Positions 6,939 through 13,668 of a DNA stretch of 64,000 nucleotides are shown here, in pieces. The notes beneath the pieces were generated by a model, which did not search any database, was not told where the DNA came from, and saw only the letters and a list, made by a program, of their open reading frames with translations. Source of the DNA: Alphaproteobacteria bacterium (GTDB lineage Bacteria > Pseudomonadota > Alphaproteobacteria > Geminicoccales > Geminicoccaceae); assembly GCA_026982705.1 (NCBI GenBank), contig JALSGP010000042.1:1-64000 (forward strand). The letters run 5' to 3'. Made by a program: the position numbers and the translations under genes. Every line of letters starts with the position of its first letter. Position 1 is the stretch's first letter.

Positions 6939-7160
6939 GGAGCCTCCCCGTCCCGCCCGCACGGCGGTCCCGCTGTGGTACGGTGCGACCCTCGTCGCCC
7001 CTCTCGATATGCGAAGTGATGCGCCGGCGCCAGCGCACCAGCCCCCGGATCCCTCCGGATGTCCGCACACGCGATCGTGATCCCACACGAGGCGAGGACA
7101 CGTCCCTTCCCTGCCCCGGTGCGGGCGTGTAGAGGCGGATGGAGGGCAGGGGACGCGACG

Positions 7161-9572
7161 ATGCGCGAACTGGCGGCGGAGGAGCTGGCCTGGCGTTGTC
7201 CCGTGGCGGAGCTCGGCTTCGCCACCACCGCCGAACTACCGGACCTCGACGGCATCGTCGGTCAGGCGCGGGCGGTGGAGGCCCTGGACTACGCCCTCGC
7301 CGTCGGCCGCCGCGACCACAACGTCTACGCCTTGGGCCCGCCCGGGGTCGGCCGCCACACGGTGGTGCGGCGACTGCTGGAGACCCATGCCCGCCGTCGG
7401 CCGGCGCCCGACGACTGGGTCTACGTCAACGATTTCGCCGATCCGCACCGGCCGCGGCCGCTCCGACTGCCGGCGGGCCGCGGCCGCGCCTTCCGCGACG
7501 ATTGCCACCAGCTCCTGGGCGATCTGGTGGAGGCCCTGCGCAACGCCTTCGAGAGCGAGGAATACCGGACCCGCCGCCAGCTCCTCGAGAAGGAGGTGGA
7601 GGAGCGGCAGAAGCAGGCCATCGCCCGGGTGGAGGAGGAGGCGCGGCGCCGGAGCATCGCGCTGCTGCGCACCCCCATGGGCTTCGTCTTCGCGCCCACC
7701 GTCGAGGGCCGGGTGATGCCGCCGGAGCGCTTCCAGCAGCTCCCCGAGCCGGTGCGTCACGAGATCGAGGCGCAGATCGAGGCGCTGCAGCGGCGGCTGG
7801 AGGCCGCGCTCCGGGACATGCCCGCCTGGATCAAGGAGATGCGCGAGAAGATCCGCCGTCTCAACGTGGAGACGGCGACGGTGGTGGTGGACTATCTGGT
7901 GGGCCAGCTCGCCCGCCGCTGGCAGGATCTCCCCGAGGTGGTGGACCATCTGGGGGCGCTGCGGCGCGACGTGATCGAGCGGGTGGAACTGTTCCTCGCC
8001 CTGCCCGAGCAGGTGCGGCCGGCGGCGGCGGGCGTGGAGGAGACGCACCCGCTGTTCCGCCGCTACGCCGTCAACCTGCTGGTGGACCACGCCGACACCA
8101 CCCACGCGCCGGTGGTCCACGAGGACGATCCCGGTTTCGAGCATCTGGTGGGGCGCATCGAACACCGGGTGGAGATGGGCGCGCTCTTCACCGACTTCCT
8201 GCTGGTGCGGCCGGGGGCGCTGCACCGGGCCAATGGCGGCTATCTGATCCTCGACGCCCACAAGCTGCTGGCCCGCCCCTTCGCCTGGGACGCCCTCAAG
8301 CGGGCGCTCTCGCGCGGCCGCATCCGCATCGAGCCCGCGACCTCCGGCCTCGGTCTGCCGCTCACCGTCTTCCTGGAGCCGGAGCCCATCCCCCTCGACC
8401 TCCAGGTGGTGCTGGTGGGGGACCGGCTGCTCTACTATCTGCTGTCGGAGCTGGACCCGGAGTTCCCGCGGCTGTTCCGCATCGCCGCCGATTTCGACGA
8501 GCGGGTGCCGCGGCGGCCCGAGACGATCACCCTCTATGCCCGCTTCGTCGCCGAACGGGCCCGGCGCGAACGCCTGCGCCCCTTCGCGGCGGAGGCGGTG
8601 GCGCGGGTCCTGGAGGAGGCGGTGCGCGCGGCGGAGGACCGCGACGAGTTCTCCGCCGACTTCGCCCGCCTCGGGGACCTGCTGCGGGAGGCGGACCATC
8701 TCGCCGGCCGCGCCGGCCGCGAGGTGGTGACGGCGGAGGACGTGGAGGCGGCGGTGGCGGCGCGCACCCGTCGTGCCGCGCGCCTCCACGAGCGCACCCT
8801 TGAGGCCATCGAGCGGGAGGTGGTGCGCATCCCCACGAGCGGACGCGCGGTGGGCCAGATCAACGGCCTGTCGGTGTTCACCCTGGGCGGCCACAGCTTC
8901 GGCCGGCCGAGCCGGATCACCGCCCGCGCCCGCATGGGCGGCGGCCGGGTGGTGGACATCGAACGGGAGGTGGCGCTGGGGGGGCCCGTCCACTCCAAGG
9001 GGGTGCTGATCCTCACCGGCCATCTCATGGCCCGCTACGTGCCGGACATGCCGCTTTCCCTCTCCGCCACCCTGGTGTTCGAACAGAGCTACGGGACGGT
9101 GGAGGGCGACAGCGCCTCGGCGGCGGAACTGCTGGCGCTGCTGTCGGCCATCGCCGAGGTCCCGCTGGCCCAGAACCTCGCCATCACCGGCAGCGTCGAC
9201 CAGCACGGCCACGTCCAGGCCATCGGCGGCGTCAACGAGAAGATCGAGGGCTTCTTCGACCTCTGCGCCCGCCGCGGGCTCGACGGCAGCCACGGGGTGG
9301 TGATCCCGCGGGCCAATCTGCGCCATCTCCAGCTCCACCGGCGGGTGCGCGAGGCGGTGGCGGCGGGGCGCTTCCACGTGTGGGCGGTGGACCGGGTGGA
9401 CGAGGCCATCGAACTGTTCACGGGCCTCCCCGCCGGAACGCGGGGACCCGACGGCCACTATCCGGAGGGCAGCTTCCACCGACGGGTGGAGGAACGGCTC
9501 CGGGCCTTCGCCGAGGCGCGCCGGCGCTTCGGCGGGGGCGAGGGGGACGAGCGGCGGGATCCGGGACGATGA
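7161..9572 (+). CDS. Lon-related ATP-dependent protease (AAA_32/YcbZ type)
   Basis: This 803-residue protein couples an AAA+ module to a C-terminal Lon-type serine protease domain, the layout of the YcbZ/LonH-like group rather than classical LonA. The P-loop reads GPPGVGRHT, with Arg where Lys is usual; this is a known feature of the group. A helical insertion (about 130-250) precedes the second half of the AAA+ fold. The protease domain shows the catalytic serine in VEGDSASAAE (near 650) and the lysine in GGVNEKIEGFF (near 692). ATG 7161 was chosen because the conserved sequence begins there and a purine-rich site precedes it. It heads a four-gene operon. Confidence 0.9.
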   Translation: MRELAAEELAWRCPVAELGFATTAELPDLDGIVGQARAVEALDYALAVGRRDHNVYALGPPGVGRHTVVRRLLETHARRRPAPDDWVYVNDFADPHRPRPLRLPAGRGRAFRDDCHQLLGDLVEALRNAFESEEYRTRRQLLEKEVEERQKQAIARVEEEARRRSIALLRTPMGFVFAPTVEGRVMPPERFQQLPEPVRHEIEAQIEALQRRLEAALRDMPAWIKEMREKIRRLNVETATVVVDYLVGQLARRWQDLPEVVDHLGALRRDVIERVELFLALPEQVRPAAAGVEETHPLFRRYAVNLLVDHADTTHAPVVHEDDPGFEHLVGRIEHRVEMGALFTDFLLVRPGALHRANGGYLILDAHKLLARPFAWDALKRALSRGRIRIEPATSGLGLPLTVFLEPEPIPLDLQVVLVGDRLLYYLLSELDPEFPRLFRIAADFDERVPRRPETITLYARFVAERARRERLRPFAAEAVARVLEEAVRAAEDRDEFSADFARLGDLLREADHLAGRAGREVVTAEDVEAAVAARTRRAARLHERTLEAIEREVVRIPTSGRAVGQINGLSVFTLGGHSFGRPSRITARARMGGGRVVDIEREVALGGPVHSKGVLILTGHLMARYVPDMPLSLSATLVFEQSYGTVEGDSASAAELLALLSAIAEVPLAQNLAITGSVDQHGHVQAIGGVNEKIEGFFDLCARRGLDGSHGVVIPRANLRHLQLHRRVREAVAAGRFHVWAVDRVDEAIELFTGLPAGTRGPDGHYPEGSFHRRVEERLRAFAEARRRFGGGEGDERRDPGR

Positions 9573-10345
9573 GCGCGCAGGCGACCTCCGGCGGGCGGGT
9601 GGTGGTGGCCCTGGTCCGCATGGAGACGGAGGCGGAGCTGGGCGCACTGCTCCGGCTGGCGCGCGGGCTCGCCGCCGAAGTGGAGGTGGCGTGGCTGGAG
9701 GACCGGCGGCTGGAGCAGGCCGCCGCCCTGCCCTTCACCCGCGCCGTCACCCGCTACGGGCGGCTGGTGAGCTTCGAGGTGGAGGAGGTGCGGCGCGGGC
9801 TGCGACTCTTCGCCGCGAGACTGGAGCGGCGGGTGCGGGAGCTGGCGGCCGGCACGGTGGGATGCCGGCTGGTGACGCGGACGGCGACGGCCACCCTCCG
9901 CCTCGCCGGCCCCCGCGACGTGCTGGTGCTGACGTCGGCCGACCTGCGGGCGGTGGCGGAGGCCTTCGGCGCGGAGGTGCTGACCCGTGATGGACCGGTG
10001 GTGGTGCCCCTTTCGGAGACGGGGCCGGTGGTGGCGGTCACGGCCGGCGATCCCCGCACCCTGGCGCTGGTGCGCCGTCTCGCCGACGGGGATGCCGGGA
10101 CGGTGGTGCTCGCGACCGACGAGGAGGGCGTGCGCGCGGGGCTCGGCGAGGCCGTCGGGCGGGTGCGGCTGGAGACGGCCGCCGGCGACGTCTTGAACCG
10201 CCGGCTCGCGGACCTCATTCAAAGGGGCGTCCGCCTCGCGGTCGCCGATCCCGCCCTGGTGCCGGTGCTGATGGCCGCGCTGGACGCGGTGGCGGGGGCC
10301 GGCGGAGCGGGCGATGCCGCGTCACCCGAGACGAGAGAGCGATGA
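9569..10345 (+). CDS. Conserved hypothetical protein, possibly universal-stress-protein-like
   Basis: The protein has 258 residues and no signal peptide or membrane segment. Two alternating hydrophobic-strand regions are visible. The first (about 10-50) contains VEVAWLEDRRLEQAAALPFTR, recalling poorly characterised proteins with a Usp-like fold that carry a LEDxxLxxxAALPF motif. The second (about 125-220) has strands VLVLTSADL, VVVPL, VVAVTAGD and VVLATDEEG. Its ATG overlaps the Lon-family stop (ATGA), and its own stop overlaps the next gene, so it is coupled to both. I infer a role alongside the protease; the chemistry is unknown. Confidence 0.7.
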   Translation: MSAQATSGGRVVVALVRMETEAELGALLRLARGLAAEVEVAWLEDRRLEQAAALPFTRAVTRYGRLVSFEVEEVRRGLRLFAARLERRVRELAAGTVGCRLVTRTATATLRLAGPRDVLVLTSADLRAVAEAFGAEVLTRDGPVVVPLSETGPVVAVTAGDPRTLALVRRLADGDAGTVVLATDEEGVRAGLGEAVGRVRLETAAGDVLNRRLADLIQRGVRLAVADPALVPVLMAALDAVAGAGGAGDAASPETRER

Positions 10346-10593
10346 GCGAACGTGCCCGCCGCAATCCCCACGCCCGCCCGACGCTGAGCGAGATCGCCGA
10401 GCTCGTGGGCGGCGACGACCCCGTCAGGCACCTGCGGATCCTCAAGACCGGCGCCACCTTCGCCGAGATCGAGCAGGCGCTGGCCTGGGCCCAGGGGGCC
10501 GGCGAGGTGCTGGGGGAGGAGGAGCGGCCGCTGTCGGGCCGGGTCGCCGCCGTCTACGACATCCTCACCGAGGACCGCGACGAACTGGAATGA
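10342..10593 (+). CDS. Small soluble hypothetical protein (83 residues)
   Basis: I do not recognise the family. This acidic, probably helical protein contains DPVRHLRILKTGATFAEIE and ends in DILTEDRDELE. It has no signal peptide or membrane segment. The ATG overlaps the preceding stop by four bases, and the next gene starts 20 bases after its stop, so it is an internal member of the Lon-family operon. Its size and acidic character would suit an adaptor or regulator of the protease, but that is only a guess from context. Confidence 0.65.
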   Translation: MSERARRNPHARPTLSEIAELVGGDDPVRHLRILKTGATFAEIEQALAWAQGAGEVLGEEERPLSGRVAAVYDILTEDRDELE

Positions 10594-10612
10594 TCCCGAG
10601 CGGGAGGACGAG

Positions 10613-11083
10613 ATGCCGCGTCGCAGACTGTGGATCGTGGTGGCCGACGGTGCCCGGGCGCGCTTCTTCCAGGCCGATGGCGGCGACCACACCATCCGGC
10701 CCTTCCACGAGGAGCTCTACGATCCCGCCCGCCGCAAGGGGTCCGAGCTCCTCGCCGACAGGCCCGGCCGCACCCAGAACCGCATCCACGACCAGGGCCG
10801 TCACGCCATGGAGCCCGACACCGATCCGAAGCGGGTGGAGAAGGAGCGCTTCGCCCGCGCCATCGCCGCCTTCCTCGCCCAGGGGCTCCACGAGGGCCGC
10901 TTCAACGAGCTGATGCTGGTGGCGGCGCCCCGTACCCTGGGCGATCTGCGCGCCGCCCTCGACCCGCAGGTGGCGGCGCGGGTGCGGCACGAGCTGGCCA
11001 AGGACATGACCACCCTGCCGGATCCGGAGATCGAGGCGCAGCTGCGGCCGCTGGTCTGGCCCCATCTCGCCGCCGGCGGCTGA
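10613..11083 (+). CDS. Host-attachment-family protein (PF10116 type)
   Basis: This 156-residue protein matches the family named after an Agrobacterium protein required for attachment to host cells. It opens LWIVVADGARARFF, the usual first strand, and has the family's central GRTQNRIHDQGRHAMEP and the end block LMLVAAPRTLGDLR followed by HELAKDMTTLP. It has no signal peptide. These proteins are related to the Rossmann-like domain of eRF1 (bacterial eRF1-like families), so the original attachment phenotype may be indirect. It closes the Lon-family operon, and nothing on this strand follows it for over 3 kb. Confidence 0.85.
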   Translation: MPRRRLWIVVADGARARFFQADGGDHTIRPFHEELYDPARRKGSELLADRPGRTQNRIHDQGRHAMEPDTDPKRVEKERFARAIAAFLAQGLHEGRFNELMLVAAPRTLGDLRAALDPQVAARVRHELAKDMTTLPDPEIEAQLRPLVWPHLAAGG

Positions 11084-11120: not shown

Positions 11121-11157
11121 GAAAAAGAAGGGCGGAGCGGACCGGTGCCGCTCCGCC
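11121..11157 (-). terminator. Rho-independent terminator (hairpin plus T-rich tail on the minus strand)
   Basis: A perfect 10-base stem (11131-11140 with 11148-11157) and a 7-base loop are followed, on the minus strand, by CTTCTTTTTC (11130-11121). This would end transcripts coming leftwards from the tail-spike cassette or from the putative FNR-dependent promoter at 11327-11280. On the plus strand no T tract follows, though the hairpin could still stabilise the 3' end of the host-attachment transcript. Confidence 0.75.
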
Positions 11158-11280
11158 GAATTCATGTTCCGCCCCACCAACGACCCCGACCAAGGGTGCG
11201 GAACATGTCCGGGCCATCGAGCCGCCTGCAGCCGGGTGGTTCGGTGGCGGTGCGGCCGGCTGCAGTGCCGCCTCAATGCG
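11121..11280 (-). ncRNA. Candidate FNR-controlled small RNA (about 160 bases)
   Basis: No gene fits this gap between two converging genes, but it has the parts of a small RNA unit. There is an FNR box whose centre is about 40.5 bases from the predicted start, and an extended -10-like element (TGCTAGGTA, 11295-11287). Two 10-base inverted repeats follow (11256-11265 with 11226-11235; 11198-11207 with 11163-11172), then the terminator at 11157-11121. The start near 11280 is predicted from spacing alone. The alternative is that these hairpins are just the 3' untranslated region of the tail-spike transcript, whose stop is at 11347. The repeats are seen; expression is inferred. Confidence 0.45.
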
Positions 11281-11313
11281 TCTCCGTACCTAGCAGAAGA
11301 CCCGGGCCGTGCC

Positions 11314-11327
11314 TTGATCGAGATCAA
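11314..11327. promoter_or_regulatory. Perfect FNR/Anr-type box TTGATCGAGATCAA
   Basis: The 14-base palindrome matches the consensus TTGAT-N4-ATCAA at all ten defined positions. FNR-class regulators activate class II promoters when the box is centred near -41.5. Here a -10-like element on the minus strand sits at the right distance. The site is only 20 bases past the stop of the minus-strand tail-spike gene and faces no annotated gene start, so its target must be an unannotated transcript, or the site is a relic or chance. Confidence 0.65.
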
Positions 11328-11346: not shown

Positions 11347-13668
11347 TCAGTCCTCGATGTAGACGTGGTTGGGCTCCTGCGGCTCGTCGGCGGCGGTCAC
11401 GTAGACGGTCACCGTCTTGCGCGGCTGGGTGATGACATAGGGATCGACGCCGCCGGGCGCCGCCAGGGTCATGCCGGCGCCGGCGCGGATCTCCACGTCG
11501 CCGGGACCGCCCTTCTGGACCTTGAACCAGACGCACTCCACACCGGGCGGGACGAGACCGGTGGGGACCTCCAGGAAGGTGGTGGCGCCGGCCGTCACCC
11601 GGATCAGCTGGCCCACGTAGTGGCCCGGCACGGCGAAGCCGCCGGCGGTGCGGTGGACCCGGAGGAAGTGGTTCTCGTCCCCGTCGGGAAAGAGGTCGGG
11701 GATGAAGACCTCGTCGTTGCCGGTGACATAGACCCGCACCCGCTGGTACTGGGTTCGGATGCGGTTCTTGCCCTTGGGCAGATAGAGGGTGACGCCGGGG
11801 CCGGCCTCGAAGACCACGTCCCCCACCCCCTGCTTGATGACGTCGAACCAGCGCAGTCCCTCGCCCGGCGCCACCAGACCGGCGGGAATGGTGCAGATGC
11901 GTTCCTGGGCGTGGTTGACCCGGTGGACCTTGCCGAAGTCGGCCCGGCTCACCGTCCAGGAGAGGTTGCGCACCCGCTCCGGCTGGACGCCGCGGCGCAC
12001 GCCCAGCGGCACCCAGGTGAGCACGCCCGGATCGTCCTCGAGCTGGAGGTACCAGCCGGGGCCGAGCCACTGTTCGCCGGTGGCGGGCAGCACCGCCGGA
12101 TCGGTGGCGTAGACGGCGAGGCCGGCCTTCTGGCGCGGGGGCGGCGTGGTGCGCGGGAACAGATAGAGGGGATCGGCGATCTCGATGCGGGCGAGCTCGC
12201 CGCGGGCACTGCCCTCGCCGTTGCCCAGGGTCAGCCGCACGTCCATCATGGGCTGACCGGTGTCGGGATTGGGATCGCCGTTGGCCACCGTGCGGGTGAT
12301 GGCGGCCATCTGGAAGCTGGTGATGTCGAAGAGGATGCCGCGCGCCGGCCGGTCGACGGCGGGATGGGTGTCGTAGTCGCTCTGCGCCGCCCCCTTGTAG
12401 TGGGCGGTGAGCATGGGCACGCCGCGATCGCGGGCGCGGATCTGCCAGGCGAGCTGATCGTACTTGTCGAGGCCGTTGATCTCCCGCGCCACGAGGCCGG
12501 TGTCGCCCAGCACGCCGCCGTCGCCCGGATAGTTGCCCACCGGGGCCGGCCCCATGAAGTTGCAGCCGACGAAGGTGCGCTTGACGCAGGAATTGGGGAA
12601 GGTGGCGTTGCTGTCGCGGTAGCGGTTGGCCGGGTCGGGGACGTTGTGGGTCTGACACAGCATGTAGGTGATGGCGCTGTTGCGCCCCGAGGTGCCGGCC
12701 GATTCCGAATATTCCTCGAAGCCCACCTCGACGATCTCGGCATCGCAGAGCAGCAGCAGCACCCGGGCACAGTTGCGCAGGCGGAATCCGACGGTGCCGG
12801 GATGGGGGGTGAGACCGCTCTGCGGCGCCGTCACCTGGATGCGCTGCAGCAACATGTTGTTGATGAGCCTGGTGGCGTCGGCGGCCGCCCCGTCGAGGTG
12901 GATGCCGACGGTGTTCGGCGCGCCGAGGCGGATCGCCACCTCCTGGACCAGGGAGTCGCCGAAGTTGACGCCGGGCATGGCGGCGCGCCAGCGGATGCCG
13001 TTGCAGGCGAGGGCGTGGGCCCCGCCGCCGAGGCCGGCGTTGATGCCGCCGATCCAGCACTCGTTGGCGTCCACCATGTCGAGACACCAGCCGTCGGGAT
13101 CGTCGAGGCCGGCCGGCGCGGCCCCGCCCGTGAATACCAGGTCGCGGGCGCGGAACTCGTGCCCGTGGACGCGGATGCCGCCCGTCGTCATGCGGATGGT
13201 GAAGCCCTCGACGGTCACCCGGTTCCAGTTGGTGTCGGCGAAGGGCTCCACCTGGAAGGCTCCCTCGTTGCGCCGCACCACCAGCGCCTGCGGGCCCTCC
13301 GCCACCAGCACGGCGAGATCGCGGCCGGCGCCCACCAGATGCCGTCTGGGCGGCACGTCCACCGGCGCCGCGAGACGGTAGGTACCGGGGGGCACGAACA
13401 CCTGCTCGTGGGCGGCGAGGGCCGCGGCGAAAGCCGGGGCGTCGTCGGCCACGCCGTCGCCGACGGCGCCGAAATCACGCACCGAGACGAATTCGCCGAG
13501 ACGGTCGTGGACGGGCCGCGGCGCACTCGCACCCGGTGCCCGGTAGGGCAGATCGGCGAAGGTGGCGCGGCGGGTGAGATTGCCGCTGACGGTGGAGACC
13601 AGCAGCCGGTCCTCGGGCGTGAGGGGACCGGCGGGATCGAGCTCGTGGATCTGCTTGGCGACGGTCAT
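11347..13668 (-). CDS. Phage tail-spike-like pectate-lyase-fold protein (possible polysaccharide depolymerase)
   Basis: This 773-residue protein has the build of a phage tail spike. A short head-binding-like N-terminus (MTVAKQIHELDPAGPLTPED) is followed by the pectate-lyase-3 entry motif VRDFGAVGDGVADD near residue 63 and a long right-handed beta-helix (about 75-480). The C-terminal part holds two copies of a phage-fibre-like unit, IPAGLVAPGEGLRWFDVIKQG and VPTGLVPPGVECVWFKVQKG, each followed by G(V/M)TL. It has no signal peptide. It is the last of three coupled genes and lies beside a polysaccharide operon. Cleavage of the cell's own or a rival's glycan is inferred; no catalytic residues could be assigned. 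Confidence 0.8.
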   Translation of the reverse strand: MTVAKQIHELDPAGPLTPEDRLLVSTVSGNLTRRATFADLPYRAPGASAPRPVHDRLGEFVSVRDFGAVGDGVADDAPAFAAALAAHEQVFVPPGTYRLAAPVDVPPRRHLVGAGRDLAVLVAEGPQALVVRRNEGAFQVEPFADTNWNRVTVEGFTIRMTTGGIRVHGHEFRARDLVFTGGAAPAGLDDPDGWCLDMVDANECWIGGINAGLGGGAHALACNGIRWRAAMPGVNFGDSLVQEVAIRLGAPNTVGIHLDGAAADATRLINNMLLQRIQVTAPQSGLTPHPGTVGFRLRNCARVLLLLCDAEIVEVGFEEYSESAGTSGRNSAITYMLCQTHNVPDPANRYRDSNATFPNSCVKRTFVGCNFMGPAPVGNYPGDGGVLGDTGLVAREINGLDKYDQLAWQIRARDRGVPMLTAHYKGAAQSDYDTHPAVDRPARGILFDITSFQMAAITRTVANGDPNPDTGQPMMDVRLTLGNGEGSARGELARIEIADPLYLFPRTTPPPRQKAGLAVYATDPAVLPATGEQWLGPGWYLQLEDDPGVLTWVPLGVRRGVQPERVRNLSWTVSRADFGKVHRVNHAQERICTIPAGLVAPGEGLRWFDVIKQGVGDVVFEAGPGVTLYLPKGKNRIRTQYQRVRVYVTGNDEVFIPDLFPDGDENHFLRVHRTAGGFAVPGHYVGQLIRVTAGATTFLEVPTGLVPPGVECVWFKVQKGGPGDVEIRAGAGMTLAAPGGVDPYVITQPRKTVTVYVTAADEPQEPNHVYIED

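Follow-up and report, generated by a model that had tools for sequence, protein, structure and literature searches.

A putative FNR-activated small RNA gene in a narrow lineage of Alphaproteobacteria

Introduction

What does an exact FNR box control when it lies in a gap between two converging genes? We examined this question at a locus in a 64-kb stretch of alphaproteobacterial DNA (the whole of the stretch analyzed, here called the window). A sequence-only reading of the window had proposed that the box drives a small RNA (sRNA) of about 160 bases. Detailed studies of sRNAs activated by FNR come from just a handful of groups, and this locus provides an independent comparative-genomics case from an uncultured lineage of Alphaproteobacteria.

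Results and discussion

The FNR box and its predicted promoter

The gap is 263 nt long. On one side of it is a gene predicted to encode a pectate-lyase-like protein (PF12708; 11347-13668, minus strand) and on the other a gene predicted to encode a baeRF12/Host_attach family protein (10613-11083, plus strand), so that the flanking genes converge as had been described. The minus strand of the gap contains an exact FNR box, TTGATCTCGATCAA (= TTGATCGAGATCAA), at 11314-11327, just where a perfect site had been reported. A genome-wide pattern search found that this is the sole instance of a perfect TTGAT-N4-ATCAA in the 2.66-Mb genome. Allowing up to one mismatch, FNR-type sites numbered one in the 64 kb, against 0.06 expected by chance, and 16 across the genome, against one for a reversed control pattern.

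The predicted transcription start is G11279 on the minus strand, which would put the center of the box at -41.5, a spacing as in class II FNR promoters. The sequence-only reading had placed the start near 11280 with the box some 40 bases away; its class II placement holds, and its start position was off by one base. An extended -10-like element, TGCTAGGTA, is found at 11295-11287 of the minus strand (hexamer 11292-11287), ending at the base given earlier. Among relatives this element varies (for instance TTAGTA, CATGAT, and TTAGCA), and because it is only loosely kept we treat it as putative. An automatic sigma-70 scan of the region returned no promoters, which is expected for a region with no -35 element and is no argument against a class II FNR promoter. 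The RNA gene predicted from this start is about 159 nt long (11279-11121, minus strand), in keeping with the length first proposed.

Conservation of the locus in relatives

We compared the 263-nt gap with 60 relatives in a DNA search. Strong matches were found in five genomes (G001, G003, G004, G018, and G024; 88-92% identity over about 120-135 nt) and a weaker match in a sixth (G016; 87% over 75 nt). The best alignments begin at the predicted transcription start and finish around the terminator, and the conserved block in the window begins at 11279. Two further BLAST matches were rejected, one of just 25 bases in the terminator region (G006, L009) and one of just 44 bases that is apparently within coding sequence (G041, L010); neither genome has a match to the covariance model described below.

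The window and the six relatives gave a comparison set of seven loci from three genera. All six relatives carry an FNR box (TTGATCCAGATCAA, TTGATCTGGATCAA, TTGATCAGGATCAA in three of them, and TTGATCGAGGTCAA), and in 7/7 loci the distance from the box center to the first base of (G/A)CATTGA is exactly 41.5 nt. Mean pairwise identity across the seven was 0.87 in the box and 0.85 in the first hairpin of the RNA, the latter an ungapped value that is lowered by a 2-nt deletion in one sequence. It was 0.65 in hairpins 2 and 3, 0.63 in the 3' part of the upstream gene, 0.46 in the spacer, 0.40 beyond the terminator, 0.37 in the -10 region, and 0.34 upstream of the box. The RNA is better conserved than the neighboring gene. 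This pattern, in which the site, the spacing, and the product are kept and the rest has drifted, is that of a predicted regulated RNA gene. Loss of the box and hairpins beside conserved neighbors had been named beforehand as the outcome that would speak against an sRNA; what we found is that the box, spacing, RNA body, and terminator are all kept in six other genomes.

The same comparison bears on the suggestion that the block belongs to the lyase-like gene at 11347-13668, as its 3' UTR and terminator, with an incidental FNR box and no promoter of its own. This gene is on the same strand as the RNA, is its constant upstream neighbor, and has its stop codon 19 nt from the box. However, the box is fixed at exactly -41.5 while its surroundings drift, the distance from the lyase stop codon to the box is variable, and no 3' region of this kind follows the lyase genes in other genera. 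We consider a 3' UTR highly improbable.

By contrast with the lyase-like gene, the gene downstream of the RNA is not a conserved neighbor. In the window and bacterium HR39 this position is occupied by the baeRF12/Host_attach gene, which converges on the RNA. G001 has a hydrolase-like gene there, and G004, G018, G024, and G016 have an O-acetylhomoserine sulfhydrylase-like gene that is co-oriented with the RNA (the hydrolase and sulfhydrylase types were named from their translations). Because this neighbor varies, no single gene has the RNA as its leader. An attenuator, in the form of an FNR-controlled 5' leader of the sulfhydrylase-like gene, would fit the four genomes in which that gene lies downstream on the same strand, but the box, RNA, and terminator are still kept where the downstream gene converges (the window and HR39) or differs (G001), and other genomes of the family have the lyase gene near a sulfhydrylase gene, judged by translation, without box or RNA. 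We rejected the leader on these differences in gene order and regard it as quite improbable, leaving a stand-alone sRNA gene as the preferred reading.

The plus strand of the window at 7059-11083 carries a row formed by a LonB-like protease gene, one or two short uncharacterized genes, and the baeRF12/Host_attach gene. Of the loci examined, the window and HR39 are the only ones in which this block adjoins the RNA.

Predicted structure of the RNA

Alignment of the seven RNAs gave a predicted fold with three hairpins. Hairpin 1 (11215-11278), identified from fold and alignment, has 20 pairs, with 100% of cells paired in the seven sequences. Its 13-base loop, CCGCACCGCCACC (11243-11255), and the stretch CTGCAGGCGGCTCGATGGCCCGGAC are invariant in 7/7 RNAs, making the loop a candidate target-pairing region. 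Hairpin 2 (CATGTTCCG...CGGAACATG; 11163-11207) is supported by the fold and by an inverted repeat of 13 bases with 92% identity (11163-11175/11195-11207). Hairpin 3 (11131-11157), identified from an inverted repeat and a terminator scan, is the stem-loop of a predicted intrinsic terminator and is followed by a T-rich tail, CTTCTTTTTC (11121-11130), from the same scan. The two perfect 10-base inverted repeats noticed from the letters were both located, at 11226-11235/11256-11265 and 11131-11140/11148-11157, the second being the terminator stem that is associated with CTTCTTTTTC. The scan found two terminator-like elements in the region, against 0.1 expected, and an equivalent of hairpin 3 with a T-rich run is present in 7/7 sequences (weakest in L004, TTGTTTTCC).

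The window RNA has a predicted folding energy of -81.3 kcal/mol, with z = -2.6 relative to dinucleotide shuffles. Counted across all of the structure, the share of paired cells is 93.3%, compared to 91.3% in shuffled alignments (2/500 reach the observed value) and 38-50% when the structure is slid. Pairs changed on both sides number five, compared to 2.0 in shuffled alignments (10/500 reach this). The closeness of the sequences keeps this covariation modest. Hairpin 1 has one compensatory pair and varies very little, so covariation barely tests it.

We also considered that the transcript is a small mRNA for a short protein. Some open frames are present, such as one in four relatives that starts at TTG and has 37 codons. 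Against this, indels put the window, L004, and the remaining sequences in different frames, no ORF is common to all, in two of the seven sequences the RNA lacks any complete ORF of 8 or more codons, and the features that are conserved are pairing partners and a loop. With its frames broken in this way, we rejected coding potential, which we rate as the remotest of the explanations, and retain a noncoding sRNA.

The candidate regulator and its other sites

Two CRP-family proteins score above the cut-off in the genome. The first (L011, on contig C12) contains the cysteine cluster VCCGHHRVCESCEVRDLAVC, which has the CESCEVRDLAVC pattern; an RLC follows later in the sequence, and the recognition helix reads TIETVSR. 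Among NCBIfam models FnrL scores highest, at 183 bits, which does not reach the curated cut-off of 300. The protein matches structures of both FixK2 and FNR. The second protein has no such cysteine cluster.

The sequence TTGATC-N2-GATCAA also suits FixK and DNR, so we asked how probable it is that the box serves another CRP-family regulator of the FixK or DNR type, in which case the signal would not be oxygen sensed via an iron-sulfur cluster. The solved structure closest to L011 by score is FixK2, and a CRP-family protein without the cluster exists in this genome. But the cysteines of the first protein follow the FNR pattern, its best-scoring model is FnrL, and it shares the genome with only one other family member above the cut-off. 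We therefore think another regulator improbable, and an FnrL-like protein is the preferred regulator of the sRNA.

Other genes provided candidate sites for the same regulator. One-mismatch FNR boxes precede ccoN (TTGATCCAAGTCAA; L015 1501-1514, C12:227193-227206) and ccoG (TTGATATCGGTCAA; L020 1501-1514, C19:108474-108487). Both genes, which belong to the cbb3 oxidase, are typical FNR/FixK targets and are probable FnrL targets here. Another site, TTGATCGCGGTCAA (L017 1501-1514, C13:25571-25584), is roughly 240 nt ahead of a gene for a COX2-domain protein, possibly a further FNR-controlled oxidase. The sRNA has the best box in an apparently working FNR regulon. That the single best FNR box of the genome is at the sRNA suggests that the RNA may be a main output of the oxygen sensor in this lineage.

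Proposed mechanism and targets

Taken together, the locus is very probably a previously undescribed stand-alone sRNA gene with a class II FNR promoter, whose product would pair in trans with the help of Hfq. Direct support comes from the conserved sequence, the box-to-start spacing, the predicted fold, the terminator, and the genes for the regulator and Hfq; transcription, oxygen dependence, pairing, and targets are inferred. We propose that at low oxygen the FnrL-like protein would carry an iron-sulfur cluster, bind the box at -41.5, and recruit RNA polymerase. The resulting transcript of about 159 nt would stop at the intrinsic terminator of the gene. As a prediction, the promoter part of this model, in which FNR activates from a class II site, is strongly supported by the comparison of loci.

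The RNA would most likely act in trans by base pairing via the invariant C-rich loop CCGCACCGCCACC of hairpin 1, probably with Hfq, the gene for which is present in the genome. The outcome could be less translation of mRNAs that are unneeded without oxygen or the tuning of part of the FnrL regulon. Taken alone, the pairing step is tentative, with a chance that we put slightly below even. Exact complements of the loop number 24 in the window's own genome, compared to 10 for a reversed control. A search for such complements in four genomes revealed no start-codon-proximal site in common, leaving particular targets unsupported. One exact complement in G004 (L079, around 1501) is about 75 nt inside a gene that we read as U32/UbiU-type and that presumably functions in oxygen-independent ubiquinone synthesis. 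This gene is a possible target, and the complement is not conserved in the sites examined.

Comparison with known FNR-controlled sRNAs

The sequence-only reading had held that the RNA is not recognizable as FnrS or PhrS, and our Rfam scan agrees as far as it can tell. No Rfam family matched at gathering score, and with E up to 5 the only matches were at chance level, none of them FnrS. For PhrS the scan bears only so far as Rfam 15 may include a model for it; no model matched the RNA. PhrS of Pseudomonas aeruginosa is ANR-dependent, so that there, too, a regulator of the FNR type drives an sRNA at low oxygen, as predicted for the window RNA. PhrS carries a conserved ORF, whereas the window RNA has none.

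At the Escherichia coli fnrS promoter the FNR site is centered at -41.5 (PMC3032703). The enterobacterial FnrS thus resembles the window RNA in its class II site at -41.5, in being a stand-alone sRNA, and in the presence of Hfq, but it belongs to another bacterial class and has no sequence or covariance match to it. The fnrS of Neisseria gonorrhoeae has a predicted class II FNR site with a -10 element and a Rho-independent terminator, with evidence from RNA-seq and lacZ fusions (PMC3032703). It is similar to the window RNA, known from its sequence and compared here by description, in its predicted class II site, short RNA, and terminator. The gonococcal RNA is likewise a functional parallel that takes its name from its promoter. 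The window RNA is, by its predicted features, a new sRNA family of the FNR-activated kind, parallel in function to FnrS and not its homolog.

Our search for literature on FNR- or FixK-driven sRNAs in Alphaproteobacteria found only cases from Rhodobacter. In Rhodobacter sphaeroides, ChIP-seq placed FnrL upstream of RSs0019 and RSs2461, two uncharacterized sRNAs for which neither a function nor an effect of FnrL had been shown (PMC4263372), and PcrZ of the same species is tied in via PrrA and FnrL (PMC8139620). These are, like the window RNA, alphaproteobacterial sRNAs linked to FnrL. They are compared with it here by description, and the covariance search of 385 Alphaproteobacteria genomes found no relative of the window RNA outside its family. 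The locus adds to the impression that sRNAs driven by FNR have originated several times, with a shared promoter layout but no relationship between the RNA bodies.

Distribution and diverged loci

The covariance search of related genomes that had been suggested was run with a model (R1) that scores the window RNA at 168 bits. It found the RNA in 8 of the 31 genomes from the window's family, the sole family of its order in the genome set. Across the class, the search of the 385 genomes found only the window's own genome (G000) and G016, both members of this family. The RNA was thus found only in one alphaproteobacterial family among the genomes searched. An exact-pattern search of named genomes found it in bacterium HR39, bacterium HR40, and four Alphaproteobacteria metagenome-assembled genomes; the lineage that contains the RNA is narrow and mostly made up of such assemblies.

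Diverged forms were observed in two genera, in G010 (L032 1461-1660; box TTGATCCAGATCAA) and G015 (L051; box TTGACTTGGGTCAA, a version with two mismatches). Both are downstream of the same lyase-like gene and have an identical 26-nt terminator hairpin, GGAGAGGGAGCCTGCCATCCCTCTCC, but a different RNA body. The G015 locus has no clear U-run. The lyase-like genes of other genera have neither box nor RNA. In six genomes the 26-mer GGAGAGGGAGCCTGCCATCCCTCTCC occurs as one copy per genome, always at the sRNA locus, and for this reason the two diverged loci appear orthologous to the others despite their differing RNA bodies. It is conceivable, though we think it unlikely, that the locus is a cassette of FNR promoter and terminator in which the RNA body has been replaced between genera. 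If so, the part that does not change, the terminator loop (CCTGCCAT), could itself serve for pairing, and the body would have been redirected to new targets.
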